Source: Gordonia jinghuaiqii
Lineage (GTDB): Bacteria; Actinomycetota; Actinomycetes; Mycobacteriales; Mycobacteriaceae
NCBI RefSeq assembly: GCF_014041935.1
Contig: NZ_CP059491.1
Span: forward strand, 3,906,001-3,970,000
DNA length: 64,000 bases
Direction of reading: 5' to 3'
In this document: in pieces, positions 30,101 to 57,605 of the stretch
Layout of the letters: each line of letters opens with the position of its first letter
Numbering within the stretch: position 1 is the stretch's first letter
Made by a program: the position numbers and the translations under genes
The notes under the pieces: model-generated
Told to the model about the DNA's origin: nothing
The model's input: only the letters and a program-made list of their open reading frames with translations
Databases searched by the model: none

Positions 30101-30659
30101 TCGTAGTCTCCTTGACCTGGCTTCTTATGTACGGCGGATTTCCGACCCGACGCACACGGTCTGTTACCCATCGAACACACGCCTGCCTGGGGTTTTGACC
30201 AGGCTGTGACACCTGGACGGACCGCCCCAGTGGGTTCGTGAGCCGATTTGCGACACAGCAGTGCCGCAGGCAACCCCACAAGTGTAGGGGAACGCCCAGG
30301 TCCCGGCCAAATCCGTCCTCCGGACCGGCCCGACGCGTGCGTCGTCGCGGCCGGCGAGCAAATTTCTCCGACCTCGACCCATCCGCGGTGATCTCCCACA
30401 CGAAGCACCCGTGGGACAATTCCGATCAGTGACACCCGCCCGGCACGCATCAGATGCGGACAGGGAAGGGATGTCACCGGGGGGCGTGTCAGTGGCGGGG
30501 GCGAGCAGCTCTCATCGAGAGCCGAACACCACGACGCCGTCGGAGTCCAGAGTTCAGTTCGACATGCGCGACCTGACCGCAGCACACCCATGAGTTCGAC
30601 CTCGGGTTCATCGCTCGAGGTCGACGCTGCGCCGGGCGCACGCCACAGGGGAGGCACGC
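30101..30659. other. Divergent intergenic region between rplN and the NRPS operon
   Basis: This is a 559-base stretch between divergent genes. No protein gene or RNA gene is convincing in it; the short open frames lack ribosome sites and known motifs. It must contain the promoter of the ribosomal block on the minus strand and that of the NRPS operon on the plus strand. I cannot place either promoter confidently, and I see no clear operator palindrome or iron-box-like sequence. Confidence 0.5.
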
Positions 30660-33600
30660 GTGACCACAGACGACGCGATCCGGCACATCACCGACACGGA
30701 ACTGGCCATTCCGATGACCGCCGCCCAGCGCGGCGTCTTCTATGCCCAGCAGCTCGAACCAGACGTGCCGATGACGATCGACGCCTTCATCGAGTTCCGC
30801 GGCGACACCTCCCGCCCCGGCGGTGAGGACGGAGACAATCCCCTCGTCGACGTCGATCCCGACATCATGCAGCGCGCGGCGACACTGACCGAGGTGGAGA
30901 CCGAGGCCTCGATGCTGCGTCTCATCCCCACCGATGACGGCGAACCGTACATGACGATCGACCACACACGCCTGGTCGTCCTGGGCCGGGAGGATTTCTC
31001 CGCCGAGACCGATCCGCGTGCCGCCGCCCTCGCCTGGATCGACCGCAGGCGCTCACAGCCCACCGATCTGTTCTCGGATCCGTTGCTCGAAACCCATCTC
31101 CTCAAACTCGGCCCGGGACACTCGATCTGGTATTGCCGCGGACACCACATCGGCTACGACGGATACGCCGCGATGTATCTGATGTTGCGCGTCGCCTCGC
31201 ATTACACCGCCATCGTCGACGGCACCCCGCCACCGGTCGCCGACACCGCGACGATGTCCGACATCGCCGAACTCGACCGCGCATACCGTTCCTCGTCGAA
31301 GTTCGCCGACGATCGTGAGCACTGGCGGCAGCACCTCGCCGACCTACCCGAGATGACCACGCTGACAAGCCTGTCCGGACCGGCCTCGCCGCTGTCGGAC
31401 GTGCGCTCGGCCGTCCTCGACGACGAGCTCGTGACCCGCATCCGCGACCTGGGCCGCGCCCACCGGGTACGGCCGGCGTCGATCATCACCGCCGTGGTCG
31501 CCGCCTACGTGGCACGCTTCACCGATCGCGACGAGGCGATGCTCAGCCTTCCGGTCGCCGCACGCGACCGCGACATCCTGCGGACCTCTGCCGGGCTCAT
31601 CTCCAACGTCGTACCCCTGCGTATCCCGCTCGACGACTCCGCCACCGTGTCGGACCTGCTCCGGGCGGTCAACGGCGAGATCAAATCCGCTGTGCGTCAC
31701 CAGAAGTTCCGTCACGAGGACATCGCAGCCCACATCCTCGGGGCGGCGGGAGCACGACGCGGATTCTTCGGTCCGCTGGTCAACGTGATGCTGTTCTTCG
31801 AACACATCGACTTCGGTCCGCTGCACGGTGAGCTGAACGTGCTCTCCACCGGCCCCATCGAAGATGTGTCGGTCAATGTCTACGACAGCTTCAACGGCGG
31901 GATGAGTCTCGACCTCGAGGCCAACCCGAACATCTACTCCCCCGACGAGATCACCACCCACCACCGGCGTCTGGTCGAATTCCTCGGGGCCGTCGTCACC
32001 GCTCCGGCCGACACCCTGGTCTCGCACATCAGCATGCTCACCGACGCCGAGCGCACCGAACTCTCCGGCCACACGACCGGCGAGCGGGTCGACCTCGGGG
32101 AGAAGACTCTCCTCGACCTCCTCGACGGGGCCGCGGCAGGTCATGCCGGCAGTACCGCGATCATCGACGGGCACGGCACCGGCTCGCTCACCCACGCCGA
32201 GTTCACCGCGCGGGCACAGTCGCTCGCCGCGGCCCTGTCGGTTCGCGGCATCGGACCCGAAAGCGTGGTGGCCGTATCGCTCACCCGCGGCGTCGATCAG
32301 GTCCTGGCCGTGCATTCGGTGATCCGCGCGGGCGCGGCGTTCCTGCCGCTCGACCCGGCCGAGCCGGCCGACCGCCTCGAGCACATCCTCGAGGTGGCCA
32401 CACCCGATCTGATCATCACCGACGCGGTCCTGGACGAATTGCGGAAGACCACCGCACCCGGGCGGCACGCGCAGCCCCCGCGGCCGGCCCCCGACCAGGC
32501 CGCGTACGTCCTGTTCACCTCCGGTTCCACCGGCAAACCCAAGGGCGTGGTCATCACCCATCGCGCCATCGTCAACCGACTCGCCTGGATGCAGTCGCGT
32601 TATCCCCTCGATGCGACCGACCGGGTACTGCAGAAGACCCCGTCGACCTTCGACGTCTCGGTGTGGGAGTTCTTCTGGCCGTTCACCTCCGGAGCCTGCC
32701 TGGTCGTGCCGAGCCCCGATGGGCACCGCGATCCGTGGTATCTGCGCGACGTCATCGCCGAGCGCGGCGTCACCACCGTGCATTTCGTACCGTCGATGCT
32801 CGCCGCGTTCGCGGCCGCGCTCGACGACACCGATGCCGCACAACTGACCTCGCTGCGCCGGATCTTCACCAGCGGTGAGGCACTCACGTCGTCGGCCATC
32901 GCGGCCACCGCCGCACTGACCACGGCGCCGGTCCACAATCTGTACGGCCCCACCGAGGCCGCGATCGACGTGACCCACCACGATGCCTGCCGGGCCGACA
33001 CCGCCGTCGTTCCGATCGGGTCGCCGGTCTGGAACACCACCGTCCACGTGCTCGACCATCACCTGCGCCCACAGCCGCCCGGCGCCACCGGCGAGCTCTA
33101 CCTCGGTGGCGTCCAGCTCGCACGCGGCTACCGCGCCCGTGCCGACCTCACCGCGGCGCGGTTCGTCGCCTCCCCGGCCGGAAACGGTGAACGTCTCTAC
33201 CGCACCGGCGATCTCGCCCGCCTGCTGCCCGACGGCGAACTGGAATACCTGGGACGCACCGACTCCCAGGTGAAGATCCGTGGCCAGCGCGTCGAACTCG
33301 GCGAGATCGAGTCCGCGATGGGCAGACTCGACGGCGTCACCGCCGCCGGCGTGGTGATCCGGGACGACCTGGTCGCCGACGCCCCCGCCGTCGCCGGGTA
33401 CGTCACCGGGAGCGGACTCGAACAACGCGACCTGCGCGCCGAACTGCGGTCGGCGCTGCCCGAGCACATGATCCCCTCGGCGATCATGGTGCTCGACACA
33501 CTGCCCACCACCGCCAACGGCAAACTCGACCGCCGGGCGCTGCCCCGGCCCGAACTGCGCACCCACCGCGAGTTCGTCGCACCGCGCACGCCGCTCGCGC

Positions 33601-36600
33601 GGCTGGTCGCCCGCACCGTCGCCGACGTCCTGGACCTGCACGAGACCACCGCCGACGGCGAGCCGGCCGACGACACACCGATCTCGCTGGGCGACAACTT
33701 CTTCGACGTGGGCGGGAGCTCTCTCTCGGCGACGCGGGTCGCCTCGCGGCTGACGAAGGCCACGGGACACCGCGTGGGAATCCGGGCGATCTTCGACGCC
33801 GCGGACCTCGGCGGGATCGTCGACGCGCTGGTCGATCTCGGTGTCGACGCCGCGGATCCGACCGGACGTGCCGGCCTCGATGACGCCACCGGCGGGGCGG
33901 GGGCGGCGCCGACCGGCCCGGTTCCCCTCTCCCCCGCGCAGCACCGCCTCTGGCTGGCGGCCCGCCTCGATCCGGCCGCCGCGGCCACCTACAACATGCC
34001 GTTCTCCGTTCGTCTGGTCGGCACACTCGACATCGACGCCCTGCACCAGGCCCTGACCGACGTCGTCCGGCGTCACGAACCGCTGCGCAGTGTCGTCGTC
34101 GAACACGATGGCGTGCCATGCATCTCGGCGACGGACCCGCAGGCCGTCGAGATCGACCTCCCGGTCCTGGGTTGCGCCGATGTCGCACCGAGCTCGGATC
34201 GCGACTTCGCCGCGCTGCCCTTCGACCTGGGCGCCGACCTACCCATCCGCGCGCGACTGGTCCGCACCTCCGACGACGACCATCGCCTGACCGTGGTGGT
34301 TCACCACATCGCGGCGGACGGATGGTCGCTCGCGCCGCTGGCCGGCGATCTGGCAGTCGCGTATCGCGCCCGCCGCGAACATGCCGAACCCATCTGGGAC
34401 GCACTGCCGGTCACCTACTCCCAGAACAGTGCCGACCGGCATGCCTGGCTCGCCGGGAGCGACCATGCGGCAGCCGAACTCGACTTCTGGCGGGACACGC
34501 TGGCCGGTGTCCCGGGCGAGTCCGAACTACCGCTCGACCGGCCGCGCGCCCACACCGGTACGCCCGGGACGAGCGGCGCATCGGTCACCTCGACGATCTC
34601 GGCGGAGGATCATCGGGCGGTCCGCGCCCTCGCCGCCGACACCGAGGCCACCGTGTTCATGGTGTTGCACGCCGCCGTGGCATCGCTGCTGCGTTCGCTG
34701 TCGCAGCACTCCGACATCGTTGTCGGAACCCCGGTCTCCGGCCGCGGCGACGCCGATGTCGACGACCTCGTGGGCATGTTCGTCAACACCCTCGCGCTGC
34801 GCACCGACGTCGACAAGGACGTCGGTTTCGCCGAGCTGCTGGCACAGGTCCGCGAGACCGATCTGAACGCGTTCGACAACGCCGACATGCCCTTCGACCG
34901 GCTCGTCACCGAACTCAACCCGGAACGCTCCGGCAACGTACATCCGTTCTTCCAGGTGTCACTTGCCCTCGAGGACCGGTCGGCGATCGCGCTCGAATTC
35001 GCCGGACTCGCCGCCACGGCCGCACGCGTCGTCACCGGTTCCACCAAATTCGATCTCGAGTTCACCTTCACCGAGCTGCACGAGGACTCCGGCGACCCCG
35101 CCGGCATCGCCCTCGAGATCGGTTATGCGACCGCACTGTTCGACCGCTCCACCGTCGCCGGGCTCGCCTCGCGCCTGGGCCGGATCGTGCACGCCGCCCT
35201 CACCGAGCCGAATACTCCGGTCGGCGACCTCCCCGTCCTGGAGATGCACGAACGTCTCGACCTGGTACCCGCCGTCGGAGCAGGACGGCGTCCGGTCGAG
35301 CACCTCACCGGCCTGCTGTCCGCCGCCGCGGGGTCCGCACCGCACCGTCTGGCGGTGACCGACGGTGCGCGATCGCTGACCTACCGGGAGCTCGACGCCG
35401 CGTCGAACGCTCTGGCCCGCGTGCTCATCGCCGGTGGTGCGGGACCGGAAAGCCATGTCGCCGTTGCGCTCGGGCGTGGCGTGGACTGGATGATCACCAT
35501 GTGGGCGGTCGCCCGCGCCGGCGCCGCCTGGTTGCCGGTCGACCCGGCGTACCCGGCGCAGCGCATCGAACACATGCTGACCGATTCCGGCGCGCGGCTG
35601 CTCGTCACCGACCGGGCATCCGACCCCCGGCCCGGCACCGACCTGCTCACCGTCACCCTCGACGACCCCGCCGTGGTCGAACGGCTCGCGGCCACCTCGT
35701 CCGCGCCGGTGTCGGATCGGGAACGGCACGGTCCGCTCGATGTCGACCAGCCCGCCTATCTGATCTACACCTCGGGGACCACCGGTACCCCGAAGGGCGT
35801 CGTGGTCAGCCACCGCGGGCTCGCCGACTTCGGCGCACAACAGGTCACGCAGTACGGGATCACCCCGGAGAGCCAGACCATGCACATGGCATCGCCCAGC
35901 TTCGACGCCACGGTGCTGGAGATCCTGATGGCGCTCGCCGCCGGTTCGACGATGCACATCGTCCCGCCCGGGATCGTCGGCGGCGCCGAGCTCGCCGAAC
36001 TGATGCGCTCGGCCCGGATCTCACACGCATTCCTCACCCCGTCGGTGCTGACCACCATGTCGCCCGAAGACGTACCGGAGCTCGAGGCGCTCGTCATCGG
36101 CGGCGAACATCCCAATCCCGAGGTCGTGCGCCGGTGGTCGGCCGGCCCGCGACTGTTCAACGCCTACGGCCCCACCGAGACCACCGTCGTCGCGGCCGTG
36201 TCCGCACCGATCAGCCCGGACTACACCACGCTGACCATCGGCCGGCCAATCCGCGGTATCTCCGCGGTCGTCCTCGACGAGCGGCTCCGGCCGGTCGCCC
36301 CCGGTGCGGTCGGCGAGTTGTACATCGCCGGTCAGCATCTGGCGCGCGGGTATCACGGCGTGCGCCCGCTGACGTCGAAGAGGTTCATCGCCAACCCCTT
36401 CGGCGATCCCGGGGAACGCATGTACCGGACCGGAGACCTCGTGCGCTGGACCGCCGGTCACGAACTCGAGTTCCGCGGCCGTGCCGACCATCAGACCAAG
36501 GTCCGCGGCCACCGCATCGAGCTCGGTGAGGTCGACGCCGCACTCGTCGCCGACGCCGCGGTACTGGCCGCGGTGACCACCACCCACGGCGAGGGCGACC

Positions 36601-39600
36601 GCGCCCACCTGGTGTCGTACGTGACGATGACACCCGACGCCTCGGGCACCGCGGCGGGCGTCCGCGACCGGCTCGCCGACCGCCTTCCGCGGCACATGAT
36701 CCCCTCGGCCGTCATCGAACTCGACGAGATCCCGACCACGCCGATCGGCAAGGTGGATCTGCGGGCACTTCCGGCCCCCGACACCGAGTCACTCACCGGC
36801 GGCGTCATCTACGTCGCACCGCTGACCCCCACCGAGCGGGCCGTCGCCGACCTCGTCGCCGAGCGCCTCGAACTCGGGCCCGGCACGGTGGGCCGCCATC
36901 ACGACTTCTTCGATCTCGGCGGGAACTCGTTGCTCGCCACCCAGATCGTCGGTGCACTGGAACAGATCACCGGACGCCGGATACCCGTCCGCGAGGTCTT
37001 CGACCATTCGACCGTCGCCGGGATCGCCCGGCTCGCCACCGACCCGGCCGACGCCGCCGCCGCCGAGAGCGCCGGCGACACCCGCGCCCTGCCCCGCCTG
37101 CGGCACGATCCCGACGCCCCGGTGCGCCCCGGTCCCGCCCAGCAGCAGCTGTGGTTCCTCAATCAGCTCGCGATCGGCCACGACCCGGCCGGCCAAGTCA
37201 CTCAGGATTCGCAAAGTGGCTCGGCGACAGCCGATTATGCCATCGCCTTCGCCCTGGATCTTCGCGGTGAACTCGACGTCGACGCCCTCGCCGGGGCGAT
37301 GCGCCTCGCCGTCGAACGCCACGCGATGCTCCGAACCGTGTACCCCGACGACGACGGACGCCCGGTCCTCGACGTGCGCCCCGGCACCGAGGTCCCCATC
37401 GACCTGACGGTCGTCGACGCCACCGCCGGCGACTGGCCCGCCAGGGCGCGCGACCTCGCGCGACGCCCGTTCGACCTCACCGTCGACGTGCCACTGCGCA
37501 CGGTCCTGCACCGGATCGACGCCGATGCCACCCACCACAAGCTGACGGTGGTCATCCATCACATCGCCGCCGACGGGTGGTCGATGGCCCCGTTGCACCG
37601 CGACATCACCCGCGCCTACGCCGAGCTGCGATCCGGCACGGCCGCCCAGCAGTCCGGTGCCCGGCCGCTGCCCATCGACTATCGCGACTATCTGCGCTGG
37701 CAGGCCGAAAACCTGGACAACCAGGCCGATCTCGCCGAGTGGTGGCGGACCGAACTCGACGGGATCGATGTCGGTCCCATCCTGATCCCCGATGCACCCG
37801 CCGACGCCGTCCGCGCCGCCGACGCGGTGGAGGTCGACTTCGGATCCGACCTGCGCCGCGCACTGATCGACCTCGCCGGCGGCCGGGCCACCGAGTTCAT
37901 GAGCGTGCACGCACTGTTCGCGGCCCTGCTCCACCGTCTCCACGCCGACCCCCGGGTGCACGTCGAGGCGGGCGCGTCGGACATCGTGATCGGCACTCCG
38001 ATGGCCGGTCGCGCCGACCCACGCCTCGCCGACATCGTCGGCATGTTCGTCAACTCGGTGGTCCTGCGCACACCGGTCGACGGGCGTGCGGACTTCACCA
38101 CCCTGCTCGACTCGGTCCGCCATCGTGACCTCGAGGCGCTGTCGCAGTCCGACATGCCGTTCGAGCAGATCGTGTCGATGCTCAATCCCCCGCGCACCGG
38201 GCGCCATCCGGTGTTCCAGATCGCCCTCGCGTTCGACGCCGGGACCTCCGACACCGCGGGGCCCGCCTCCGCGCGCACCACGCTGCCGGGACTCGAGGTC
38301 GAGGCCGAGGAGGTCGAGACCGGTGCCGCCCGCTTCGATCTCGAACTCCGGGTTCGCGAAGGTCGCGCCCGGTTCACCTACGCGACCGACGTCTACACCC
38401 GCGAACGCATCACGGCCCTCGCGGCGATGCTCGTCGACCTCGCGCACGCCGTGGTGGCCAACCCCACCACCCCGCTCGACGACCTGCCGCTGGGCGGACT
38501 CGCCGTGCAGCGCCCAGAAGGACTGCCCCACAGTACGATCACGCCGCGCCATCTCGCCGACATCATCGACGACACCGCTCGTGCGCATCCGGACCGCGTC
38601 GCCGTCGAAGACGGCGACCGTGCCCTCACCTACGCCGAGATCGATCGGATCTCGGCGGGGTGGGCGCGGATCCTGCGCGAACTCGGCGTGGGCACCGAGG
38701 ACGTGGTCGCGATCGCGCTCGAACGCAGCCTCGAGTCGGTGATCGCCACCTGGGCGGTCGCCAGGACCGGAGCGGCGACCCTCCCGATCGACACGCGCTA
38801 CCCGGCCGAGCGGATCGCGCACATGATCACCGATTCCGGTGCGCTCATCGGCATCACCACCGCCGACCGCCGGACGACCGTGCCCCACGCGATCTGGTGG
38901 ATGACCCCGGAGGACCTGGCCGGCCCGCCCCCCGAGACGATCGGGGCCGAGAACACCGGGACACGACACACCGATTCGGTCGCCTACATCGTCTACACCT
39001 CGGGCTCGACCGGAAAGCCCAAGGGCGTCAGCGTGACCCACCGCGGACTCGCCGCTTTCAGCACCACCCAGCGGGAGCGGTACCGGGTGGGTCCGGGCGA
39101 CCGCACCCTGCTGTTCGCCTCCCCGTCCTTCGACGCCGCGATGCTGGAACTGCTGCTCGCGGTCGACGCGGGCGCGACGATGGTCATCGCCCCGACCTCG
39201 ATCTACGGTGGCGACGAGCTGGTCGAGTTCCTCGACGAGCACACGGTGACCCACGCGTTCATCACCCCGGCCGCTCTCGCCTCCGCCACGCCCGCTCCGT
39301 TGCCGCATCTGCGGACACTCGGTGTCGGCGGCGAGGCCAGCACACCGGAACTGGTGGCGCGCTGGGGAACCGGACGCAGATACATCAACAGCTACGGCCC
39401 CACCGAGACCACCATCGTGGCGGTGATGTCGGAACCGCTGACCTCGGGTGCACCGATCACCATCGGCACCCCTGTACACGACTGCACCGCACTCGTGCTG
39501 GACCACCGGCTGCAGCCGGTACCCGACCATGTCCCCGGCGAGCTGTACCTCACCGGTCCCGGTGTCGCACGCGGCTACCTCTTCCGCCGCGGGCTCACCG

Positions 39601-42600
39601 CCACCAGGTTCGTGGCCGGACCGGACACCGGCGGTCGCGTCATGTACCGCACCGGCGACATCGTCCACCGCACCGCCGACGGCGCACTGATCTATCACGG
39701 GCGCAGCGACAACCAGGTGAAGGTCCGCGGTTTCCGGATCGAACTCGACGAGATCGGTGCGGCACTCTCCGCTGCCGACGGGGTGGACTACGCGACCGTC
39801 GTCGTGCGCGGCCAGGGCGCGGCGGCAACGCTCGTCGGCTACGTCACCCGCACCGGCGACACCCTCGACACCTCGGCGGTTCTCGAGTCCGTCCGCCGCC
39901 GGCTGCCGCGACACATGGTGCCCGCGGCGGTCGTCGAACTGGACACCATCCCGATGACCGGCAACGGGAAACTGGACCATCGGGCGCTGCCCGACCCAGC
40001 CCACGCCGGGCCCGGATCGACCGCCCGCGCCCCGCGCACCGACACCGAGTCCGCACTCGTCCGGATCGTCGCCGACGTCCTCGATCTCCGTCCCGACGAT
40101 GTCGGCGCGACCGACGACTTCTTCCTGATCGGCGGCACCTCCCTGCAGGCCACCACGCTGGTCAGCCGGATCAACCGCGTGCACACCGGTGAGAAGCTGC
40201 GGGTGCGCGATGTGTTCGACCATCCGACCCCCGAGGCGCTCGCCGCGCTCGTCGCACTGCCCGAGGGCTGGGAGCCGCAGGGTGCAGGGGAAAACGGTGC
40301 AGGAGGATCCGGCGACGCACTGCCCGTGACCCGGCCGAGCACGTTCCCCCTGGCGCCCGTCCAGCGTCGGCTCTGGTCGATCGCCGCCGCCGCGCCGGAC
40401 TCCACCGAGTACCTGATGCCCTTCGTGTTACGCCTCCGCGGCGACCTCGACGTCGACGCATTGCGCGGCGCCCTGGTCGACGTGGTGGCCCGCCACACCA
40501 GCCTGCGGACCGTCTTCGAATTGGGTGACTCCGGGCCCGTCGGCCGAGTTCTCGACGACCCGGCCGCGGTGGTCGGTGACCTGCCGGTCCGCCGGACCGA
40601 CGATCCGATGGCCGAGATCGCACTGTCGGCGACCACACCCGTCGACCTGCTGCGCGATGCGCCGATGCGAGCCACCCTCGTCGCCGGCACGAGCACCGAA
40701 GAAACTGCGCCGGAACATCTTCTGGCTCTCGTCGTCCATCACATCGCGGCCGACGGCGCGTCGTTGCCGATCCTCGTCGCGGATCTGTGCCGGGCCTACG
40801 GCGAACGTCGCCGTGGCCGCACCGAACCCTGGGGACCCGCCGGCGTCGACTACCGCGATCATGCGGTCGAGAGCGCAACAGATCCGGCGATCGAGGAGGA
40901 TCTGCGGTACTGGACCGAGGCGCTCGCGCAGGCACCCGCGGAGACCACCGTTGCGCCGTCGGCGCATCCGGATGCCGAGACGCGCAGGTCCGGTCGACCC
41001 GGGCCCGGCGACGAGGACGGGTCGCGCCCGGCTGGCGAAGCGCGCTCGGTCACGTTGCCGATCGCGGCGCACACCCGCGCCGGCCTGGTCGCCTTCGCCC
41101 GCGAACAGTCCGCGACGCCGTTCTCCGTGCTGCACACCGCCCTCGCGATCCTGCTGCACCGCCTCGGCGTGGGTTCCGACCTGGTCATCGGCAGCCCGGT
41201 AGCCAACCGCGCCGGCACCGTCGACTCCACCCGGGACTACAGCGGCGTGGTCGGGATGTTCGTCAACGTCCTGCCGCTGCGGACCCGCCTACGGGCCGCC
41301 GACAGTGTCGCCGCGCTCGTGCATCGCGTCCGCGACGCCGACATCGACGCACTCGATCACCGCGGACTCCCCTTCGACGACGTCGTCGCGGCGGTGAACC
41401 CGTTGCGCGCCAACGGCCGTCACCCGATCTTCCAGGTCGCACTGTCGGTGCACGACTACTCGGTCGGGACGGCGGCGCCCGGGAATGCCGGCGGCCTGAC
41501 CGGGACGACGGTGACCATGGACGACGGCCTGCTGGCCGAGGTCTCCGAGTTCGAGTCCCCGGCAGCGAAGTTCGACCTGCAGGTCACGGTCACCGGGATG
41601 AATCCCGGCCGCGGCGACGCCGGTGGCGCCGCCATCCAGATCACCTACGACACCGCGCGATACGGCCACCATGACGCCGAACTGCTGGGCACACGCCTGA
41701 TGCGTGTCCTGCGCGGGATGCTCGGCGACCCCGGCCGCGCCATCGGCGACATCCGTATCACCGATCCGCTCGAGGTGGCCGAACGCAGTCCCGCCCTCGG
41801 CCCCGCGGGCAACCCACCCACCACGCTCGACGTCCTGTTCGGCGATGCGGTCCGACGCAACCCCGGGGGCATCGCCGCCATCGAGGCCCCGGGGACGCCG
41901 GGCGGTGAACCCGAGACGATCACGTATGCCGAACTCGACGCCCGGTCCAACCGATTGGCCCGCGTGCTGCTCGGCCGGGGCATCGGCGGACAGGCCGAAC
42001 CGGTGGCCGCGATGGCCGTGCAACGCTCGATCGACGCACTCGTGGCGATCTGGGCGATCGTGAAGGCGGGCGCGGCCTATGTTCCCGTCGACCCCAACTA
42101 TCCCGCCGACCGGATCGCCCACATGCTCGGCGACAGCGGCGCGCAGCTCGTCGTCACGACGTCGGCGTCGAAGGAACGGATCGCATCCGGAACCGGAACC
42201 CCGATGCTGGTCCTCGACGAGGACTCCACCCGCACCCGGATGAAGCACTCCTCGCCCGCCCCGATCACCGATGCCGAACGCGCATCGACGATCCGCCCGG
42301 ACCAGCTGGCCTACATCATCTACACCTCCGGTTCCACCGGGAAGCCGAAGGGCGTGCTGGTACCCCATGCCGGACTGCGTGCGGTGCACGACGAACTGGC
42401 CCGCCGGATGGGTCCGGGACCCACCTCGCGTGTGTTGCAGTTCGCCTCACCGAGTTTCGACGCATCGGTCCTGGAGTTCCTTCTGGCACTGTCGGGTTCG
42501 TCGGCCCTGGTGATCGTCGATCCGGATGTGTACGGCGGCGCGGCGCTCAGCGATGTCATCGATGCCCGGCAGGCCACCCACGCGTTCATCACCCCGGCCG

Positions 42601-44492
42601 CGGTGGCCAGCATGGATCCGGCCGCGGTGCCCTCACTGCGGGTCCTCGCCGTCGGCGGTGAGGCCTACGGCGCCGACCTGGTCCGGCGCTGGTCGCCGGG
42701 CCGGACCATGCTGAACGTCTACGGACCCACCGAGTCGACGATCATCACCACCGGCAGCCGATCGCTGACCCCCAACACACCGCTGACCATCGGCACGCCC
42801 AACAACGGCGTCGGCGCCCTCGTGCTCGACGAGCGACTGCATCCGGTGCCGCCCGGCGTCACCGGCGACCTCTATCTGATGGGCGCCCAGGTGACCCGCG
42901 GTTATCACGGCAGACCGGGGTTCACCGCGACCCGCTTCGTCTCCGCCCCGATGGTCACCGGACCGCGTTTCGCCGGCCACCGCATGTACCGCACCGGCGA
43001 TCTCGTCCGCTGGACCGACGACGGGCAACTCGTCTACGTCGGCCGCAGCGACACGCAGGTCCAGGTCCGCGGATTCCGGATAGAACTCGGCGAGATCGAC
43101 GAGGCGCTCGCCGCGGACCCGGACGTCGACTTCGCCATCACCCTGGTCGAGGGCACGGGAGGCGCTGCGACACTGCGCAGTTACGTCACGGCCACACGGG
43201 GTGCAACCCCGGACCCCGCCGAGCTCCGGCGTCACGCGGGCCGCCGGTTGCCGCGGCACATGGTGCCGGCCTCGGTGACCGTACTCGCGACCATCCCGCT
43301 GACCCCGACCGGCAAATTCGACCGGGCGGCGCTACCCGCCCACGTCTCCGACGCCCCGCGCAGGCAGCCCGCGCCGGGACTCGAGACGGCCGTCGCGCAG
43401 ACCTTCGCCGAGGTCCTGGAGGTCCCGATCGAGACCGTCGGCGCCGACGACGGGTTCTTCGATCTCGGCGGCAATTCGCTGATGGCCACGTCGGTGACCC
43501 GAAAGCTGACCGAACTGACCGGACACGACGTCTCGGCCGCGGCACTCTTCGGTGCGCCGAGCCCGGCCGAACTCGCGACCCTGCTCGACGGCGCGGAGGG
43601 AACGGCGGGGACACACGGAGAGTCCGCACGCCTGTCGTCGACCCTCGGACTCGACACACTTCTGCCCTTGCGCCGCAACGGACGTCACTCGACACGCTCG
43701 TCCGGCGCCGCCCAGACGCCACCGTTGTTCGTCGTCCATCCGGCGATCGGGCTGTCGTGGAGCTTCGCCGCGCTGCTGCCGCACCTGCCGGCCGATCGCG
43801 CGGTGTACGGGCTGCAACACCCGGCGCTGTCCGGCGGTCCGTTCCCGCACACGATCGCCGACCTGGCGGCCGAATACGTCGAACAGATCCGTGCGGTGGC
43901 GCCCGCCGGGCCGTACCACCTGCTCGGGTGGTCGTTGGGCGGGCTGATCGCGCATGAGATGGCCGTGCAGTTGCAGGAATCCGGCGAGTCCGTCGACCAG
44001 CTGACCCTGCTGGACAGCTACGTCGTCGCCGAACGACCGGATCTCGACACCGAGACCTCCATCGCCGAGTTGATGCGCGAATTCGGACTGGAACTGCCTG
44101 CGGGGACACGCCTCGGGGACGACCCCGACGAGCTCACCGTCGCCGACGTCCACCGCGTGCTCTCGGCGACCGGCGGTGCACTGGCCGGCCTCACCGTGGA
44201 CGCCCTCGCGGCCGTCCACGAGGTCTTCGGCCATGCCTCGCCACTGGCCCGGTCCTGGCGACCGCGCGTCTTCGACGGCGACATGACGTTCGTGACCGCA
44301 ACGGTCGACCCGCAACCGGGCGCACCCGCGGTCACCGACTGGCACTCGAAGGCCACCGGCCGGCTCGTCGAGGTCGAGACCACCAGCACCCATGCCCGCA
44401 TGGTGTTGCCGGAGAACGTATCCCAATGGATACATGCAATCGGAGGACGTCCCGGCACAACGGACGCCGCCACACACGAGGGGGAAGCATGA
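30660..44492 (+). CDS. Four-module nonribosomal peptide synthetase with thioesterase
   Basis: This 4610-residue NRPS reads C-A-T / C-A-T / C-A-T / C-A-T-TE. C domains: about 10-450, 1085-1530, 2150-2610 and 3230-3700, each with an intact HHxxxDG (HHIGYDG near 161, HHIAADG near 1215, 2300 and 3360). A domains: about 483-960, 1547-2040, 2630-3115 and 3720-4225, each with its TSGSTGKPKG-type loop. Carrier Ser motifs: GGSSL near 1014, GGNSL near 2082, GGTSL near 3154 and GGNSL near 4266. The TE has GWSLGG near 4423. No epimerase, methyltransferase or oxidase was seen. Read by eye, the A1 pocket is close to DVWHFSLID, which means serine; A2-A4 start DALF and cannot be assigned. A complete C domain with no loading module before it suggests an acyl or aryl starter. 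GTG at 30660 follows GGGAGG. Confidence 0.95.
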   Translation: MTTDDAIRHITDTELAIPMTAAQRGVFYAQQLEPDVPMTIDAFIEFRGDTSRPGGEDGDNPLVDVDPDIMQRAATLTEVETEASMLRLIPTDDGEPYMTIDHTRLVVLGREDFSAETDPRAAALAWIDRRRSQPTDLFSDPLLETHLLKLGPGHSIWYCRGHHIGYDGYAAMYLMLRVASHYTAIVDGTPPPVADTATMSDIAELDRAYRSSSKFADDREHWRQHLADLPEMTTLTSLSGPASPLSDVRSAVLDDELVTRIRDLGRAHRVRPASIITAVVAAYVARFTDRDEAMLSLPVAARDRDILRTSAGLISNVVPLRIPLDDSATVSDLLRAVNGEIKSAVRHQKFRHEDIAAHILGAAGARRGFFGPLVNVMLFFEHIDFGPLHGELNVLSTGPIEDVSVNVYDSFNGGMSLDLEANPNIYSPDEITTHHRRLVEFLGAVVTAPADTLVSHISMLTDAERTELSGHTTGERVDLGEKTLLDLLDGAAAGHAGSTAIIDGHGTGSLTHAEFTARAQSLAAALSVRGIGPESVVAVSLTRGVDQVLAVHSVIRAGAAFLPLDPAEPADRLEHILEVATPDLIITDAVLDELRKTTAPGRHAQPPRPAPDQAAYVLFTSGSTGKPKGVVITHRAIVNRLAWMQSRYPLDATDRVLQKTPSTFDVSVWEFFWPFTSGACLVVPSPDGHRDPWYLRDVIAERGVTTVHFVPSMLAAFAAALDDTDAAQLTSLRRIFTSGEALTSSAIAATAALTTAPVHNLYGPTEAAIDVTHHDACRADTAVVPIGSPVWNTTVHVLDHHLRPQPPGATGELYLGGVQLARGYRARADLTAARFVASPAGNGERLYRTGDLARLLPDGELEYLGRTDSQVKIRGQRVELGEIESAMGRLDGVTAAGVVIRDDLVADAPAVAGYVTGSGLEQRDLRAELRSALPEHMIPSAIMVLDTLPTTANGKLDRRALPRPELRTHREFVAPRTPLARLVARTVADVLDLHETTADGEPADDTPISLGDNFFDVGGSSLSATRVASRLTKATGHRVGIRAIFDAADLGGIVDALVDLGVDAADPTGRAGLDDATGGAGAAPTGPVPLSPAQHRLWLAARLDPAAAATYNMPFSVRLVGTLDIDALHQALTDVVRRHEPLRSVVVEHDGVPCISATDPQAVEIDLPVLGCADVAPSSDRDFAALPFDLGADLPIRARLVRTSDDDHRLTVVVHHIAADGWSLAPLAGDLAVAYRARREHAEPIWDALPVTYSQNSADRHAWLAGSDHAAAELDFWRDTLAGVPGESELPLDRPRAHTGTPGTSGASVTSTISAEDHRAVRALAADTEATVFMVLHAAVASLLRSLSQHSDIVVGTPVSGRGDADVDDLVGMFVNTLALRTDVDKDVGFAELLAQVRETDLNAFDNADMPFDRLVTELNPERSGNVHPFFQVSLALEDRSAIALEFAGLAATAARVVTGSTKFDLEFTFTELHEDSGDPAGIALEIGYATALFDRSTVAGLASRLGRIVHAALTEPNTPVGDLPVLEMHERLDLVPAVGAGRRPVEHLTGLLSAAAGSAPHRLAVTDGARSLTYRELDAASNALARVLIAGGAGPESHVAVALGRGVDWMITMWAVARAGAAWLPVDPAYPAQRIEHMLTDSGARLLVTDRASDPRPGTDLLTVTLDDPAVVERLAATSSAPVSDRERHGPLDVDQPAYLIYTSGTTGTPKGVVVSHRGLADFGAQQVTQYGITPESQTMHMASPSFDATVLEILMALAAGSTMHIVPPGIVGGAELAELMRSARISHAFLTPSVLTTMSPEDVPELEALVIGGEHPNPEVVRRWSAGPRLFNAYGPTETTVVAAVSAPISPDYTTLTIGRPIRGISAVVLDERLRPVAPGAVGELYIAGQHLARGYHGVRPLTSKRFIANPFGDPGERMYRTGDLVRWTAGHELEFRGRADHQTKVRGHRIELGEVDAALVADAAVLAAVTTTHGEGDRAHLVSYVTMTPDASGTAAGVRDRLADRLPRHMIPSAVIELDEIPTTPIGKVDLRALPAPDTESLTGGVIYVAPLTPTERAVADLVAERLELGPGTVGRHHDFFDLGGNSLLATQIVGALEQITGRRIPVREVFDHSTVAGIARLATDPADAAAAESAGDTRALPRLRHDPDAPVRPGPAQQQLWFLNQLAIGHDPAGQVTQDSQSGSATADYAIAFALDLRGELDVDALAGAMRLAVERHAMLRTVYPDDDGRPVLDVRPGTEVPIDLTVVDATAGDWPARARDLARRPFDLTVDVPLRTVLHRIDADATHHKLTVVIHHIAADGWSMAPLHRDITRAYAELRSGTAAQQSGARPLPIDYRDYLRWQAENLDNQADLAEWWRTELDGIDVGPILIPDAPADAVRAADAVEVDFGSDLRRALIDLAGGRATEFMSVHALFAALLHRLHADPRVHVEAGASDIVIGTPMAGRADPRLADIVGMFVNSVVLRTPVDGRADFTTLLDSVRHRDLEALSQSDMPFEQIVSMLNPPRTGRHPVFQIALAFDAGTSDTAGPASARTTLPGLEVEAEEVETGAARFDLELRVREGRARFTYATDVYTRERITALAAMLVDLAHAVVANPTTPLDDLPLGGLAVQRPEGLPHSTITPRHLADIIDDTARAHPDRVAVEDGDRALTYAEIDRISAGWARILRELGVGTEDVVAIALERSLESVIATWAVARTGAATLPIDTRYPAERIAHMITDSGALIGITTADRRTTVPHAIWWMTPEDLAGPPPETIGAENTGTRHTDSVAYIVYTSGSTGKPKGVSVTHRGLAAFSTTQRERYRVGPGDRTLLFASPSFDAAMLELLLAVDAGATMVIAPTSIYGGDELVEFLDEHTVTHAFITPAALASATPAPLPHLRTLGVGGEASTPELVARWGTGRRYINSYGPTETTIVAVMSEPLTSGAPITIGTPVHDCTALVLDHRLQPVPDHVPGELYLTGPGVARGYLFRRGLTATRFVAGPDTGGRVMYRTGDIVHRTADGALIYHGRSDNQVKVRGFRIELDEIGAALSAADGVDYATVVVRGQGAAATLVGYVTRTGDTLDTSAVLESVRRRLPRHMVPAAVVELDTIPMTGNGKLDHRALPDPAHAGPGSTARAPRTDTESALVRIVADVLDLRPDDVGATDDFFLIGGTSLQATTLVSRINRVHTGEKLRVRDVFDHPTPEALAALVALPEGWEPQGAGENGAGGSGDALPVTRPSTFPLAPVQRRLWSIAAAAPDSTEYLMPFVLRLRGDLDVDALRGALVDVVARHTSLRTVFELGDSGPVGRVLDDPAAVVGDLPVRRTDDPMAEIALSATTPVDLLRDAPMRATLVAGTSTEETAPEHLLALVVHHIAADGASLPILVADLCRAYGERRRGRTEPWGPAGVDYRDHAVESATDPAIEEDLRYWTEALAQAPAETTVAPSAHPDAETRRSGRPGPGDEDGSRPAGEARSVTLPIAAHTRAGLVAFAREQSATPFSVLHTALAILLHRLGVGSDLVIGSPVANRAGTVDSTRDYSGVVGMFVNVLPLRTRLRAADSVAALVHRVRDADIDALDHRGLPFDDVVAAVNPLRANGRHPIFQVALSVHDYSVGTAAPGNAGGLTGTTVTMDDGLLAEVSEFESPAAKFDLQVTVTGMNPGRGDAGGAAIQITYDTARYGHHDAELLGTRLMRVLRGMLGDPGRAIGDIRITDPLEVAERSPALGPAGNPPTTLDVLFGDAVRRNPGGIAAIEAPGTPGGEPETITYAELDARSNRLARVLLGRGIGGQAEPVAAMAVQRSIDALVAIWAIVKAGAAYVPVDPNYPADRIAHMLGDSGAQLVVTTSASKERIASGTGTPMLVLDEDSTRTRMKHSSPAPITDAERASTIRPDQLAYIIYTSGSTGKPKGVLVPHAGLRAVHDELARRMGPGPTSRVLQFASPSFDASVLEFLLALSGSSALVIVDPDVYGGAALSDVIDARQATHAFITPAAVASMDPAAVPSLRVLAVGGEAYGADLVRRWSPGRTMLNVYGPTESTIITTGSRSLTPNTPLTIGTPNNGVGALVLDERLHPVPPGVTGDLYLMGAQVTRGYHGRPGFTATRFVSAPMVTGPRFAGHRMYRTGDLVRWTDDGQLVYVGRSDTQVQVRGFRIELGEIDEALAADPDVDFAITLVEGTGGAATLRSYVTATRGATPDPAELRRHAGRRLPRHMVPASVTVLATIPLTPTGKFDRAALPAHVSDAPRRQPAPGLETAVAQTFAEVLEVPIETVGADDGFFDLGGNSLMATSVTRKLTELTGHDVSAAALFGAPSPAELATLLDGAEGTAGTHGESARLSSTLGLDTLLPLRRNGRHSTRSSGAAQTPPLFVVHPAIGLSWSFAALLPHLPADRAVYGLQHPALSGGPFPHTIADLAAEYVEQIRAVAPAGPYHLLGWSLGGLIAHEMAVQLQESGESVDQLTLLDSYVVAERPDLDTETSIAELMREFGLELPAGTRLGDDPDELTVADVHRVLSATGGALAGLTVDALAAVHEVFGHASPLARSWRPRVFDGDMTFVTATVDPQPGAPAVTDWHSKATGRLVEVETTSTHARMVLPENVSQWIHAIGGRPGTTDAATHEGEA

Positions 44493-44815
44493 CCAATCCG
44501 TTCGACGACACCGACGGGACCTTCCGGGTCCTGGTCAACCACGAGAACCAACACTCCTTGTGGCCCGAGTTCGCCCCGGTCCCCGACGGCTGGGACACCG
44601 TGTTCGGACCGTCCGGGCACGACGAGTGCCTGGAGTACGTCGAGGAGAACTGGCGAGACATGCGGCCCGCCAGCCTGATCCGGACCATGGAACGGTCACG
44701 GGGCCCCGAGAGCTCATCAGACACCGGACGCTCATCGGACACCGAACAGTCGGACAGCGAACGCGCACAGAAAACCGGAAGCGAGGTCACCCGTGGGGCG
44801 GCACAGTTTGGCTGA
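44489..44815 (+). CDS. MbtH-like protein (first copy)
   Basis: This 108-residue protein's first 70 residues are Mbt[41 protein letters not shown] and CLEYVEENWRDMRPASLI, with the invariant SLWP and the Trp pairs. MbtH proteins bind adenylation domains and are often needed for their folding and activity. Residues 72-108 are a Ser/Glu/Arg-rich tail not usual for the family (about 65-75 residues). ATG at 44489 overlaps the NRPS stop (ATGA), so this is the dedicated partner of the large synthetase. It overlaps the ABC ATPase gene by 23 bases. Confidence 0.95.
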   Translation: MTNPFDDTDGTFRVLVNHENQHSLWPEFAPVPDGWDTVFGPSGHDECLEYVEENWRDMRPASLIRTMERSRGPESSSDTGRSSDTEQSDSERAQKTGSEVTRGAAQFG

Positions 44816-46157
44816 CACGGCAACACCAGCGAACGCCACCGGCGTCGGCACCCCGGACACCCCGGAGACCGCAGCGACCCCGCACACCCAGGACGCCTTG
44901 GACGACACCCCGGCACGAAACGCGCTTGAGATCCGCGGACTTCGCAAGTCGTTCCGCACCGGCATCTTCGGTCGCGGTCCGCGTGTGCACGCACTGAACG
45001 GGCTGGATCTGACGGTGCCGTCGGGAACGGTCCACGCACTTCTCGGTCCGAACGGCGCGGGAAAGACGACGGCCGTGCGCGCCGTGGCGACCCTCATGCG
45101 CCCCGACGAGGGCAGCGTGGTGGTCGACGGTGTCGACGTCCTCGCCGATCCCGGTGCAGCCCGCAAGATCATCGGCGTCTCGGGGCAGTACGCGGCGGTC
45201 GACGGCAACCTGACCGGGTTCGAGAACCTGCGCATGGTGGGCCAGCTGTACGGGCAGTCACGCGCCGAGGCCTCGGCCCGCGCGCGTGAGCTGATCGCCG
45301 ATCTCAATCTCGAGGACGCGGCGGACCGGCCGATGCGCACCTACTCCGGCGGCATGCGTCGACGACTCGACCTGGCCGGGGCGCTCATCAACCGCCCGTC
45401 CCTGGTCATCCTCGACGAACCGACCACAGGTCTGGACCCGCGCGGGCGGCGACAGATGTGGGACGTCATCGCCGAGCAGATCGCCGGTGGCGCGACGGTA
45501 TTGCTCACCACGCAGTACCTCGAGGAAGCCGACGCACTCGCCGACGAGATCACCGTCATCGACCACGGCACGATCCGCGCCCAGGGCAGCGCCGCCGACC
45601 TCAAGGCGGCCACGGGCGGGTCGATCCTGACCGTGGTGGTCGCCGGCCGGACCTCGCTGAAGGGCAGCCCCGACGGCGACTCCCCCGAATACGACTCGCC
45701 CGGCGACGAGCTCGTCGCGTCCGCGCTCGCCGGCATCGGCGTCGGCACACCCGAACGCCTCGGCACCGACGAGACGCGTACGGGACACTCGAAGACCGGG
45801 GAATCGACCGCAGATGCCATCCGGTGGTCGGTGCCCGTGGACTCCGGGACCCGGAGCGCCGTCGCGGCGGTCAAGGCACTCGACGCTCTCGGCATCGACG
45901 TCGTCGACGCCGCGGTGTCCACCCCCACCCTCGACGACGTCTTCCTCACGCTCACCGGCCGGGATACGCAGACCCGAGATACGTCCGGATCCGCCCGGGT
46001 CGAGGACCCAGGAACCGGTGACACCACGACTGGTGTCAGCCGGACAGATGACATCGAGATCAGCAGCAGCAGAACGGTTTTCGAACCTGTCAATTCCGGC
46101 ACGAACGGCAAGTCGGACAATTCGGCCATCGGATCGGAGCGACTCCGTGTTCACTGA
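44793..46157 (+). CDS. ABC exporter ATPase, DrrA-like
   Basis: This 454-residue ATP-binding subunit has Walker A GPNGAGKTT near residue 87, signature YSGGMRRRLDLAGAL near 184, Walker B LVILDEPTTGLDP near 204 and the H-loop region TTQYLEEAD. The DrrA family energises export of glycolipids, drugs and peptides. It is about 120 residues longer than usual, with an acidic insert near residues 290-340 and an 80-residue Ser/Thr/Asp-rich C-terminal tail. The 45 residues before the ATPase core are also low complexity. GTG at 44793 was chosen after a GCGAGG site. It overlaps mbtH upstream and the permease downstream by 11 bases, so it is tied to the NRPS operon. Confidence 0.9.
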   Translation: MGRHSLADTATPANATGVGTPDTPETAATPHTQDALDDTPARNALEIRGLRKSFRTGIFGRGPRVHALNGLDLTVPSGTVHALLGPNGAGKTTAVRAVATLMRPDEGSVVVDGVDVLADPGAARKIIGVSGQYAAVDGNLTGFENLRMVGQLYGQSRAEASARARELIADLNLEDAADRPMRTYSGGMRRRLDLAGALINRPSLVILDEPTTGLDPRGRRQMWDVIAEQIAGGATVLLTTQYLEEADALADEITVIDHGTIRAQGSAADLKAATGGSILTVVVAGRTSLKGSPDGDSPEYDSPGDELVASALAGIGVGTPERLGTDETRTGHSKTGESTADAIRWSVPVDSGTRSAVAAVKALDALGIDVVDAAVSTPTLDDVFLTLTGRDTQTRDTSGSARVEDPGTGDTTTGVSRTDDIEISSSRTVFEPVNSGTNGKSDNSAIGSERLRVH

Positions 46158-46929
46158 CACCGCAGTGCTCGTCGAACGGAATCTGCTGACCGTCAAGCGG
46201 ATTCCCACCCTCCTGATCAGCGCGACCATCCAGCCACTGATGTTCGTGTTCTTGTTCGCCTACGTTTTCGGTGCCACATTCGGCGGCGGCTCGTATCGCG
46301 AGTTCCTGATGGCCGGGATCTTCACCCAGACGGTGGTCTTCAACGCCGCCTTCACCACTGTCGGTCTGGCGAATGACACCTCGGACGGAATCGTGGATCG
46401 CCTACGATCGCTGCCGATGTCGCGACTGGGTGTCATCAGCGGACGCGTCACCTCGGACATGGTCCTGGGCATCGTCGGCCTGGCCGTCATGGTCGCCTGC
46501 GGCCTCGCCATCGGATGGCGCGTGCACGGCAGCGCGGTTGACGCCGCCATCGCCTTCGGCATCATCGGCCTGTTCGCGCTCGCGATGGCATGGGTGGGTG
46601 CCGTCACCGGTCTGGCAGCACCGAATGTCGAAGCGGCACAGAGCATCGGGTTCCTCTGGATGTTCCCGGTGACGTTCCTCTCGAGTGCGTTCATCTCCGC
46701 TCAGAGCCTTCCCGGACCCCTCCGCGCGATCGCGGAATGGAACCCCGTGACGGCCGTGGCGACCGCGTGCAGACAGCTCTTCGGCAACGACGCCCCGCCC
46801 GACTTCCCGCCGGCGACCGGCTGGGTTGCGGACCACGCGGTGGGATATTCGGTGGGTTCGGCACTGCTGATCCTGGCCGTGTGCATCCCGGTGTCGCTGA
46901 TCCTTTACCGACGTTCAGCTAATCGGTGA
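46147..46929 (+). CDS. ABC-2 type exporter permease, DrrB-like
   Basis: This 260-residue membrane subunit has about six segments: PTLLISATIQPLMFVFLFAYVFG near residues 18-40, FLMAGIFTQTVVFNAAFTTVG near 52-72, VLGIVGLAVMVACGLAIGW near 108-127, AIAFGIIGLFALAMAWVGAVTGL near 137-158, IGFLWMFPVTFLSSAFIS near 165-183 and SVGSALLILAVCIPVSLILY at the end. The block LPGPLRAIAEWNPVTAVATACR is the usual ABC-2 periplasmic loop. GTG at 46147 overlaps the ATPase gene. With it this forms an exporter that most likely carries the peptide product of the upstream NRPS. Confidence 0.92.
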   Translation: MFTDTAVLVERNLLTVKRIPTLLISATIQPLMFVFLFAYVFGATFGGGSYREFLMAGIFTQTVVFNAAFTTVGLANDTSDGIVDRLRSLPMSRLGVISGRVTSDMVLGIVGLAVMVACGLAIGWRVHGSAVDAAIAFGIIGLFALAMAWVGAVTGLAAPNVEAAQSIGFLWMFPVTFLSSAFISAQSLPGPLRAIAEWNPVTAVATACRQLFGNDAPPDFPPATGWVADHAVGYSVGSALLILAVCIPVSLILYRRSANR

Positions 46930-46975
46930 TTCTTGATCGCAAGAGAAGTTCACGCGTGTTCGTTACCTTTGAACC

Positions 46976-47584
46976 GTGACACCGGACGATGGCAGCGCGG
47001 CCGCCGACGCGCACCTCGGCCACGGGGGAGAAGCGAGGGTGCTTCGCGACCTGCTGGCCTCGGCCGCCCTGGGCGACCGCGCCGCGTTCACGCATCTCTA
47101 CGACCTGACGAGCTCGCGCGTCTACGGACTGGCGTTCCGCGTGGTCCGGGACCGGCAATACGCCGAGGAGATCGTGCAGGAGGCCTATCTGCAGTACTGG
47201 CAGAAGGCGAATGACTATCATCCCGCGCGCGGTTCGGTCCTGACCTGGATGATGACCATCGCCCACCGCCGGGCCGTCGACCGCGTTCGCACCGAGGAAC
47301 TTCAGCAACGACGCATATCCGAGTACGGGGCCGCGTCGGTCGAAACTCCTCGCAACATTCCGTTGGAGGTGGTTGTTCACGCCGACGAGGCGCGTACGCT
47401 ACGCACATGTCTCGGCGAGCTCACCGACCTTCAACGGAGCTCCATCGAGATGTCCTATTTCGGCGGCTTGACCTACCCGGAGGTCGCACAGCGCACCGCT
47501 ACTCCCTTGCCCACCGTCAAGTCTCGGATCCGAGACGGACTGCGTCGGTTGAAGACCTGTCTGAGGACGCAGGAGGATGTCTGA
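46976..47584 (+). CDS. sigK: ECF sigma factor, SigK-like
   Basis: This 202-residue extracytoplasmic-function sigma factor has region 2 near residues 38-105 (LYDLTSSRVYGLAFRVVRDRQYAEEIVQEAYLQYW and WMMTIAHRRAVDRVR) and region 4 near 140-195 (LTDLQRSSIEMSYFGGLTYPEVAQ, then LPTVKSRIRDGLRRLKTCL). The paired downstream gene is an RskA-type anti-sigma factor, as in the mycobacterial sigK-rskA pair. Start is GTG at 46976. It begins 46 bases after the ABC permease, close enough to be read through from the NRPS operon, though it may have its own promoter. Its targets here are unknown. Confidence 0.85.
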   Translation: MTPDDGSAAADAHLGHGGEARVLRDLLASAALGDRAAFTHLYDLTSSRVYGLAFRVVRDRQYAEEIVQEAYLQYWQKANDYHPARGSVLTWMMTIAHRRAVDRVRTEELQQRRISEYGAASVETPRNIPLEVVVHADEARTLRTCLGELTDLQRSSIEMSYFGGLTYPEVAQRTATPLPTVKSRIRDGLRRLKTCLRTQEDV

Positions 47585-47591
47585 GCTCATC

Positions 47592-57371: not shown

Positions 57372-57605
57372 CTAGTTCGCCTTGCGAGCGGCTTCGTCGG
57401 CCTCCATCGCATCGATCAGGCTCTTGGGCCGGAGATCGGTCCAGTTCTTCTCGACATATTCGAGGCATGCCGCACGGCTGTCCTCGCCGAAGACCTTGGT
57501 CCAGCCGGCCGGGATGTCGGCGAACGTCGGCCACAGCGAATGCTGGTTCTCGTCGTTGACCAGGACGTAGAAGCGGCCTTCTTCATCATCGAACGGGTTC
57601 GTCAT
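57372..57605 (-). CDS. MbtH-like protein (second copy)
   Basis: This 77-residue MbtH protein is of normal family size: [40 protein letters not shown] and [21 protein letters not shown]. All invariant positions (SLWP, two structural Trp, RPxSL) are present. It starts 72 bases after the second NRPS on the same strand, with AGAGGAAG before the ATG at 57605. It differs clearly from the first copy at 44489, so each synthetase has its own helper. Confidence 0.95.

Follow-up and report, generated by a model that had tools for sequence, protein, structure and literature searches.

Peptides that are acylated on the first residue and released by a thioesterase (TE) are known from the rhizomide and holrhizin synthetases RzmA and HolA (starter condensation (C) domains 7c1h/7c1k; PMC7804268), and an N-terminal C-starter domain is also found in the putative lipopeptide clusters of non-ribosomal peptide synthetases (NRPS) of Rhodococcus, the products of which are mostly unknown and of which only 19 of 79 families contain ligases (PMC5550956). 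Nocardichelins and peptidolipids are listed for Gordonia (PMC6467163), gordofactin has been described by bulk composition (PMC11720751), and the IITR100 surfactant is a ninhydrin-negative glycolipid (PMC9009618); as far as the accessible text of these sources goes, none of them identifies the product of the locus considered here. A Gordonia survey found mostly singleton gene-cluster families (PMC9680422). As to regulation, mpt83, sigK, and rskA are described as a cassette in which a SigK site is conserved, sigK of M. tuberculosis is autoregulated from the Rv0449c promoter, and M. smegmatis has no sigK-rskA pair (PMC7509140). The window analysed here, a stretch of 64,000 nucleotides of Gordonia jinghuaiqii (G000:C1:3906001-3970000, from a one-contig genome of 5.18 Mb), contains a four-module NRPS operon with an mbtH-like gene and two ABC exporter genes, adjoined by a sigK-rskA pair. 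With a probability of roughly 0.6, this island may direct the SigK-controlled synthesis and export of a fatty-acyl-Ser tetrapeptide. Its novelty would lie in joining a lipopeptide NRPS operon with a starter C domain, which is a known kind, to a SigK-RskA pair. The literature searched, in which subscription journals were little covered, held no description of the operon, its product, or SigK control of an NRPS, in line with the statement of an earlier, sequence-only reading of the window that no characterised product fits.

Open reading frames (ORFs) and Pfam agree with the architecture proposed by that reading, namely four modules of C, adenylation (A), and thiolation (T) domains and a TE in one protein of 4610 residues (Condensation, AMP-binding, and PP-binding, each four times, and Thioesterase once), followed by mbtH, an ABC ATPase, and a permease. 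The NRPS gene has a GTG start after GGGGAGG, and its stop codon shares four bases (ATGA) with the ATG of mbtH. The ABC ATPase, from its GTG at 44793, overlaps mbtH by 23 bases, or by eight bases from the alternative start TTG 44808, and the permease, most likely starting at GTG 46147 rather than at the first ATG of its ORF (45814), overlaps the ATPase by 11 bases. To the left, the operon is flanked by the ribosomal genes rplN-rplX-rplE, pointing away from it, and to the right by sigK-rskA and then an esterase. This layout is not due to chance, since the same architecture was found repeatedly across Gordonia. Catalytic residues were compared among 20 complete four-module sequences (the window and 19 others), with L047 (split), L048 (five-module), and L052 (contig-cut) left out. 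Residues invariant in 20 of 20 were the serines of all four peptidyl carrier proteins (PCP), the second His, Asp, and Gly in each C motif, and the Ser, Asp, and His of the TE; the first His of the C2 motif was Asn in three, and the per-domain mean identity to the window NRPS was 59-75%. In L047 (G022), the NRPS frame is split inside module 1, by a sequencing error or a real break.

The specificity codes of the A domains were read by alignment to a PheA fragment in 23 rows, consisting of the window and L031-L052. All 22 rows containing A1 carried DVWH[FVIL]SL[IV]DK, and the form found in the window is one that we take to specify Ser, the residue already proposed for module 1 from the sequence. 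A2 read DALFVGAVVK and A3 read DALF[GA]G[SACHG][IV]VK in 22 of the 23 rows each, L048 deviating in both cases, and A4 read DALFAGV[IV]IK in all 22 rows containing it. The pockets of A2-A4 are nonpolar; their codes, searched in six eight-letter forms, did not occur in the literature searched. The best relative of the TE in the PDB was 7crn ('NRPS 4', 145.6 bits, the next other protein reaching 66.8), which we take to be the TE of skyllamycin (Skyxy-TE).

The first C domain is, by its sequence, of the starter type and apart from the LCL and DCL types. In phmmer searches of the PDB, C1 ranked RzmA-Cs first (189 bits), followed by CDA-C1 (165), ObiF1 (157), and EntF (111), then by the 'amide synthase' 1l5a (93), Txo1 (78), Txo2 (70), 8xjz (67), and lower matches, and it matched the surfactin C-domain chains with about 27 bits. 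The ranking of C2 was the opposite, with 5u89, presumably DhbF-like, at 303 bits and the 7kvw group, presumably FscG, at 264, against 42 for CDA and 26 for RzmA. Similarly, in a tree of 77 rows, C1 fell with a support of 100/100 inside a starter clade of 22 rows (C1 with 12 of its orthologues, a further two N-terminal C domains from the same genome, RzmA-Cs, CDA-C1, and five rows of the EntF type or related to it), whereas C2-C4 were among the remaining 55 rows, grouping with elongation C domains. The sequence-only reading had left its starter to such a phylogeny, and a first C domain among LCL domains, the outcome that would have spoken against it, did not occur, C1 being of the starter type. 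Its statement that no epimerase is present agrees with the elongation type of C2-C4 and with the NRPS itself, in which no epimerisation domain was found.

With regard to the nature of the starter, pocket residues were read in 22 rows (the window and 21 orthologues; L047 not read). The equivalent of RzmA residue 148, the acyl gate (Ala171 in the window), was Ala in 22 of 22, and that of residue 138 (Gly161) was Gly in 20, Ala in one, and Cys in one. The EntF-type or related rows L080, L083, L103, and L131 have Tyr at 138 and Phe at 148, and CDA has Val and Met at these positions. In RzmA, a smaller residue at 148, and smaller residues at 138 and 143 combined, shift the chain from C2 toward C8-C16 (PMC7804268). 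A fatty-acyl starter thus seems likelier than an aryl one, the gate being Ala throughout versus Phe in the four EntF-type rows, so that of the earlier proposal of an acyl or aryl starter the starter type stands and the parity of the two does not.

The distribution of the operon was surveyed in 59 Gordonia genomes (C1 orthologue threshold E <= 1e-90). A C1 orthologue occurred in 37 of them (45-100% identity). All of these but G021, 36 genomes, also have a permease orthologue of at least 78% identity, and the 22 C1-negative genomes have none, which supports the earlier description as a self-contained synthesis and export operon; a permease match of 46% in G027 and a second match of 45% in G033 were taken as paralogues. 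In 35 of the 36 genomes, the permease shares its strand with C1 and lies 13-17 kb past the C1 start, and in G024 it is on a different contig. MbtH and both ABC genes were found downstream in all 20 loci with enough sequence (L031-L047 and L049-L051), L052 was cut, and the remaining 1.6 kb of L048 contained no MbtH or ABC genes. At least 22 named loci contain an orthologue (L058-L079), 21 from Gordonia and one from Jongsikchunia kroppenstedtii. Outside these two genera, no C1-A1 or whole-protein match above 42% identity was present among the matches listed, and the proteins of other genera within the best 120 of 621 were 36-42% identical and larger (at least 6600 aa).

The sigma factor follows the same distribution. 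Of the 36 genomes that contain both NRPS and permease, 34 have SigK (E <= 1e-58, at least 58% identity), whereas no SigK passed this limit in the 23 others. By coordinates, the distance between sigK and the permease does not exceed 3 kb in 33 of the 34, the permease of the last (G080) standing at a contig end; in seven genomes sigK is inverted yet adjoins the operon. At E <= 1e-30, a check of 11 genomes (10 operon-free ones and G021) gave only relatives of 46-53% identity, not close to rplN, in nine and none in two. Furthermore, one genome (G028, L142) shows an empty site, with a distance of 433 bp between rplN and the esterase and no match to island proteins in the 7 kb piece; this interval is 4.9 kb in G034 and 1.5 kb in G005. 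On these comparisons, the co-inherited unit reaches through sigK-rskA to 48593, not ending at 46929 as had been proposed. The esterase at 48756, considered as a further member, was rejected, as it has a match (E <= 1e-100) in 59 of 59 genomes and borders the empty site on the right.

A SigK-type promoter probably stands before the NRPS, judging from a motif common to other SigK loci. This motif, CCATC[CT]-N16-CGAA, was initially noticed on visual inspection of the window. A subsequent test on the 601 bp preceding the aligned NRPS start found it in 19 of the 23 rows (20 matches), 50-325 bp ahead of that start. When spacers of 10-23 were tested, no row had the motif at any spacer other than 16, and the remainder of these loci, comprising 891,973 strand-bases, gave three further matches as background. 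L040, L041, and L052 carry an ACCAATC form with one or two mismatches, and L048 carries no form. Among the 22 named loci, which largely represent the species already covered by the 23 rows, the exact motif is present in 17; the other five show an ACCAATC form, in one case with the spacer extended by a single base. L048 and L146 (no motif form at up to two mismatches) are the only loci lacking any form, and they are exactly those whose genomes lack a linked SigK. The sequence-only reading, though supported in part, had missed this genus-wide island with its SigK-type promoter.

The same motif occurs in operon-free genomes with a SigK match, before an amine-oxidase gene that precedes sigK on the same strand in nine of nine loci; it starts 25-55 bp before the first matched amine-oxidase residue and lies 3.5-4.6 kb from sigK. 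In all three loci with a fasciclin (mpt83-like) match, it also precedes the fasciclin gene, at a distance of 88-104 bp. Pfam confirmed the amine oxidase in three of the nine and the fasciclin in two of the three. Rv0449c is, we presume, an amine oxidase too. In these loci (L162-L170), a second copy of the motif is often present on the opposite strand; in L162, the called ORF begins within the motif, so that the true start of the amine-oxidase gene is further down. They offer a reference for the SigK promoter from within the genus. The -10 element read CGAAG in 20 of 20 exact matches at NRPS promoters, whereas the nine other SigK loci, with 19 copies in all, gave CGAAT (14), CGAAC (4), and CGAAG (1). 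CCATCY-N16-CGAAG has four matches in the genome of the window, three besides the NRPS promoter, and the reversed control none. The hexamers are presumed to correspond to the published SigK promoter consensus. In the accessible parts of two papers, CCATCC occurs only in a primer (PMC7509140), and neither CCATCC nor CGAAT occurs in the other (PMC4821874). Second SigK copies were encountered at other sites in G031, G012, G065, and G072 (L158-L161); they are about 70% identical to the operon SigK, and the exact motif is absent from their 7.5 kb pieces. In addition, an iron-box scan gave no match in the window and one in the whole genome, a yield too low to bear on a siderophore link, and Rfam gave no match to the leader 30101-30760 up to E = 1.

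The mbtH gene cannot be called dedicated, as had been claimed, since the genome contains only two mbtH genes, both in the window, for several NRPS loci, those at 65-84 kb, 0.61, 1.07-1.09, and 3.07-3.11 Mb lacking their own. The second one (57450-57605, minus strand) is located beside a giant NRPS, the C-terminal end of which occupies 57678-64000 on the minus strand; this gene converges on the operon and runs on to roughly 4006.6 kb on the genome. Its product of 11596 aa has a terminal TE and is preceded by an NRPS of 2722 aa with a starter C domain. As for the exporter, the ABC ATPase scored 296.6 bits against NCBIfam TIGR01188 (DrrA), under the cut-off of 312.45, and the permease 68.6 bits against TIGR01247 (DrrB), under the cut-off of 223.05; by these scores, the pair is DrrAB-like only.

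Taken as a pathway, the starter C domain would pass a fatty acyl group, probably of medium or long chain and drawn from the acyl-CoA or acyl-ACP (acyl carrier protein) pool of the cell, to Ser on PCP1. Modules 2-4, with MbtH assisting the A domains, would append three nonpolar residues, expected in the L-configuration as there is no epimerisation domain, unless the TE epimerises. The TE would then free acyl-Ser-X-X-X as a free acid or close a lactone, and the DrrAB-like pair would move the product to the envelope or the medium. The adjoining SigK/RskA pair would turn the operon on via the SigK-type promoter.

Several observations weigh against this interpretation. The co-inheritance counts ignore shared ancestry, and the SigK limit of E <= 1e-58 leaves weaker relatives uncounted. 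Two of the 36 genomes are exceptions for SigK, namely G018, where only 79 residues of SigK were recovered, and G066. The latter contains, at L146 (G066:C16:26000-45999), a divergent NRPS with both ABC genes, and no MbtH match, SigK, or promoter motif was found there. G021 carries a five-module relative (L048, 5642 aa, C1 50% identical) for which exporter, SigK, and motif were all not found; it may be a paralogue, or it may descend from the operon by reshuffling. The exact motif is missing in four of the 23 rows (L040, L041, L052, and L048), it stands as far as 280 bp ahead of the NRPS start codon in the window, and it was not found in the sequence pieces covered around two further SigK relatives of operon-free genomes (L156 and L157). 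Concerning the starter, RzmA and CDA form one group with the EntF-type rows within the starter clade (96/47), beside the C1 group (99/97), so that the tree alone cannot separate acyl from aryl; the equivalent of 143, which also affects chain length in RzmA, is a bulky residue, Phe or Tyr, in 21 of the 22 rows; and the pocket equivalence with RzmA, a distant relative, rests on the alignment around the HHxxxDG motif. Finally, the operon contains no acyl ligase or ACP, as noted earlier for the ligase, and among the 99 candidates scored out of 115, no stand-alone AMP-ligase match lies within 100 kb, the nearest ones being located near 3.73 and 4.07 Mb. Surfactin and glidobactin use acyl-CoA as starter donor (PMC7804268), and with a free acyl-CoA donor a nearby ligase would not be needed.

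Alternatively, the NRPS could be an EntF-type synthetase of a Ser siderophore with an aryl cap, dihydroxybenzoyl (DHB) or salicyl, for which the donor is made elsewhere. C1-A1 is indeed 33-38% identical, near full length, to Enterobacterales EntF loci, which gave the best E-values outside Gordonia and Jongsikchunia among the pattern-seeded matches listed; A1 presumably has the Ser code in common with EntF; EntF-type rows share the starter clade; and the best sub-threshold relative of DHB/salicyl-AMP ligases, at 594 kb, adjoins another NRPS. This seems decidedly unlikely, however, with Gly/Ala in the pocket and not Tyr/Phe, no DHB-AMP ligase above the curated cut-off of 723.55 bits in the genome (best 556.3), 1680.8 bits for the NRPS against the NCBIfam EntF equivalog (cut-off 2400), and no polar codes for iron ligands in modules 2-4. 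It is most improbable that the operon and the giant NRPS make one larger product, even if they converge at a distance of about 13 kb and both have starter C domains and a nearby mbtH, as each of the two has a starter C domain and a TE to itself and therefore looks like a complete line, and one genome lacks the block 30660-48593 between rplN and the esterase.

A different doubt concerns regulation, as SigK and RskA may be mere neighbours of the operon, SigK controlling other genes and the NRPS having a different promoter. The inverted sigK of seven genomes fits such an arrangement, as does G066, which retains NRPS and exporter without SigK or motif. The adjacency of sigK survives that inversion, however, the 16-base spacer is fixed in the 19 motif-bearing rows at widely varying distances to the NRPS start, the same motif precedes other SigK operons and mpt83-like genes of the genus, and the rows without any motif form are those without a linked SigK, which makes the mere-neighbour explanation rather unlikely. 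If the SigK-controlled, exported lipopeptide is the correct interpretation, it would represent a widely shared Gordonia pathway, often at one chromosomal site, and sigK/rskA would offer a defined switch, usable to activate the pathway and find its product.

Table 1. Coordinates of the NRPS island and its predicted promoter within the window.
Feature	Position	Strand	Remarks
SigK-type promoter (putative)	30377..30405	+	ACCCATCCG - N15 - CGAAG; ~280 bp ahead of NRPS start
Promoter hexamer CCATCC	30379	+	16-base spacer, then CGAA at 30401
NRPS, C-A-T x4 + TE	30660..44492	+	4610 aa
C1, starter-type condensation domain	30705..32054	+	HHIGYDG; PDB ranking, tree, pocket residues
A1	32097..33554	+	DVWHFSLIDK; presumably Ser
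T1 (PCP)	33627..33839	+	Ser1021
C2, elongation type	33915..35255	+	tree, PDB ranking; best PDB match 5u89
A2	35307..36779	+	DALFVGAVVK; nonpolar
T2 (PCP)	36837..37037	+	Ser2090
C3, elongation type	37176..38513	+	tree
A3	38577..39989	+	DALFGGSIVK; nonpolar; positions 299 and 322 differ between species
T3 (PCP)	40047..40259	+	Ser3161
C4, elongation type	40338..41786	+	tree
A4	41847..43343	+	DALFAGVIIK; nonpolar
T4 (PCP)	43377..43589	+	Ser4273
TE	43677..44459	+	GWSLGG Ser, LLDSY Asp, THARM His
mbtH-like	44489..44815	+	108 aa; PF03621 98.9 bits, cut-off 27; ~55 residues past Pfam domain (44648-44815)
ABC exporter ATPase, DrrA-like	44793..46157	+	
ABC-2 exporter permease	46147..46929	+	78-95% identity in 35 other Gordonia genomes
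sigK-like extracytoplasmic function (ECF) sigma factor	46976..47584	+	NCBIfam SigK (NF007228) 231 bits, cut-off 226
rskA-like anti-sigma factor	47577..48593	+	RskA_C (PF10099) 80.1 bits, cut-off 29.4; RskA_N 20.3, under cut-off 27

Elsewhere in the window, bacterial Ig/cadherin-like domains are repeated in an ORF of 1055 aa (19675-22842, plus strand), and a TerD domain is combined with a following AIM24 domain in another protein (22878-24299, plus strand).

Compared with known systems, the window NRPS resembles EntF, a one-module synthetase, in its C-A(Ser)-T first module, its starter clade, and its TE. It differs from EntF, which has the aryl pocket, requires a DHB ligase, and lacks an ABC-SigK operon. 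We know of no MbtH/ABC/SigK operon for RzmA or HolA either, and their peptide and codes differ from those of the window NRPS; predicted N-acylation of the first residue and release by a TE are features in common. The starter C domain of RzmA is the best PDB relative of C1, and the wild-type gate of RzmA is Arg, for acetyl (PMC7804268), where the window has Ala. The Rhodococcus clusters (PMC5550956) share the N-terminal starter domain, although no orthologue of the operon was found outside Gordonia and Jongsikchunia among the matches listed. Skyxy-TE epimerises and macrolactonises (PMC11735501), whereas for the window TE there is no sign of cyclisation. The mpt83-sigK-rskA system (PMC7509140) is matched in the window by a SigK over its cut-off, an RskA_C domain, and the motif of other Gordonia SigK loci. 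Unlike in that cassette, the putative target next to sigK-rskA is an NRPS-exporter operon, and no fasciclin (mpt83-like) match was found in the window. We give an even chance to a rewiring in Gordonia by which SigK-RskA, with mpt83-like proteins and its own operon as the usual outputs, came to control an exported lipopeptide, the whole being inherited together as an island that has a distinct promoter variant (CGAAG as -10). In that case, an anti-sigma factor would couple an envelope signal to lipopeptide output, and SigK-RskA control, studied mainly in mycobacteria, would extend to lipopeptide synthesis and export.

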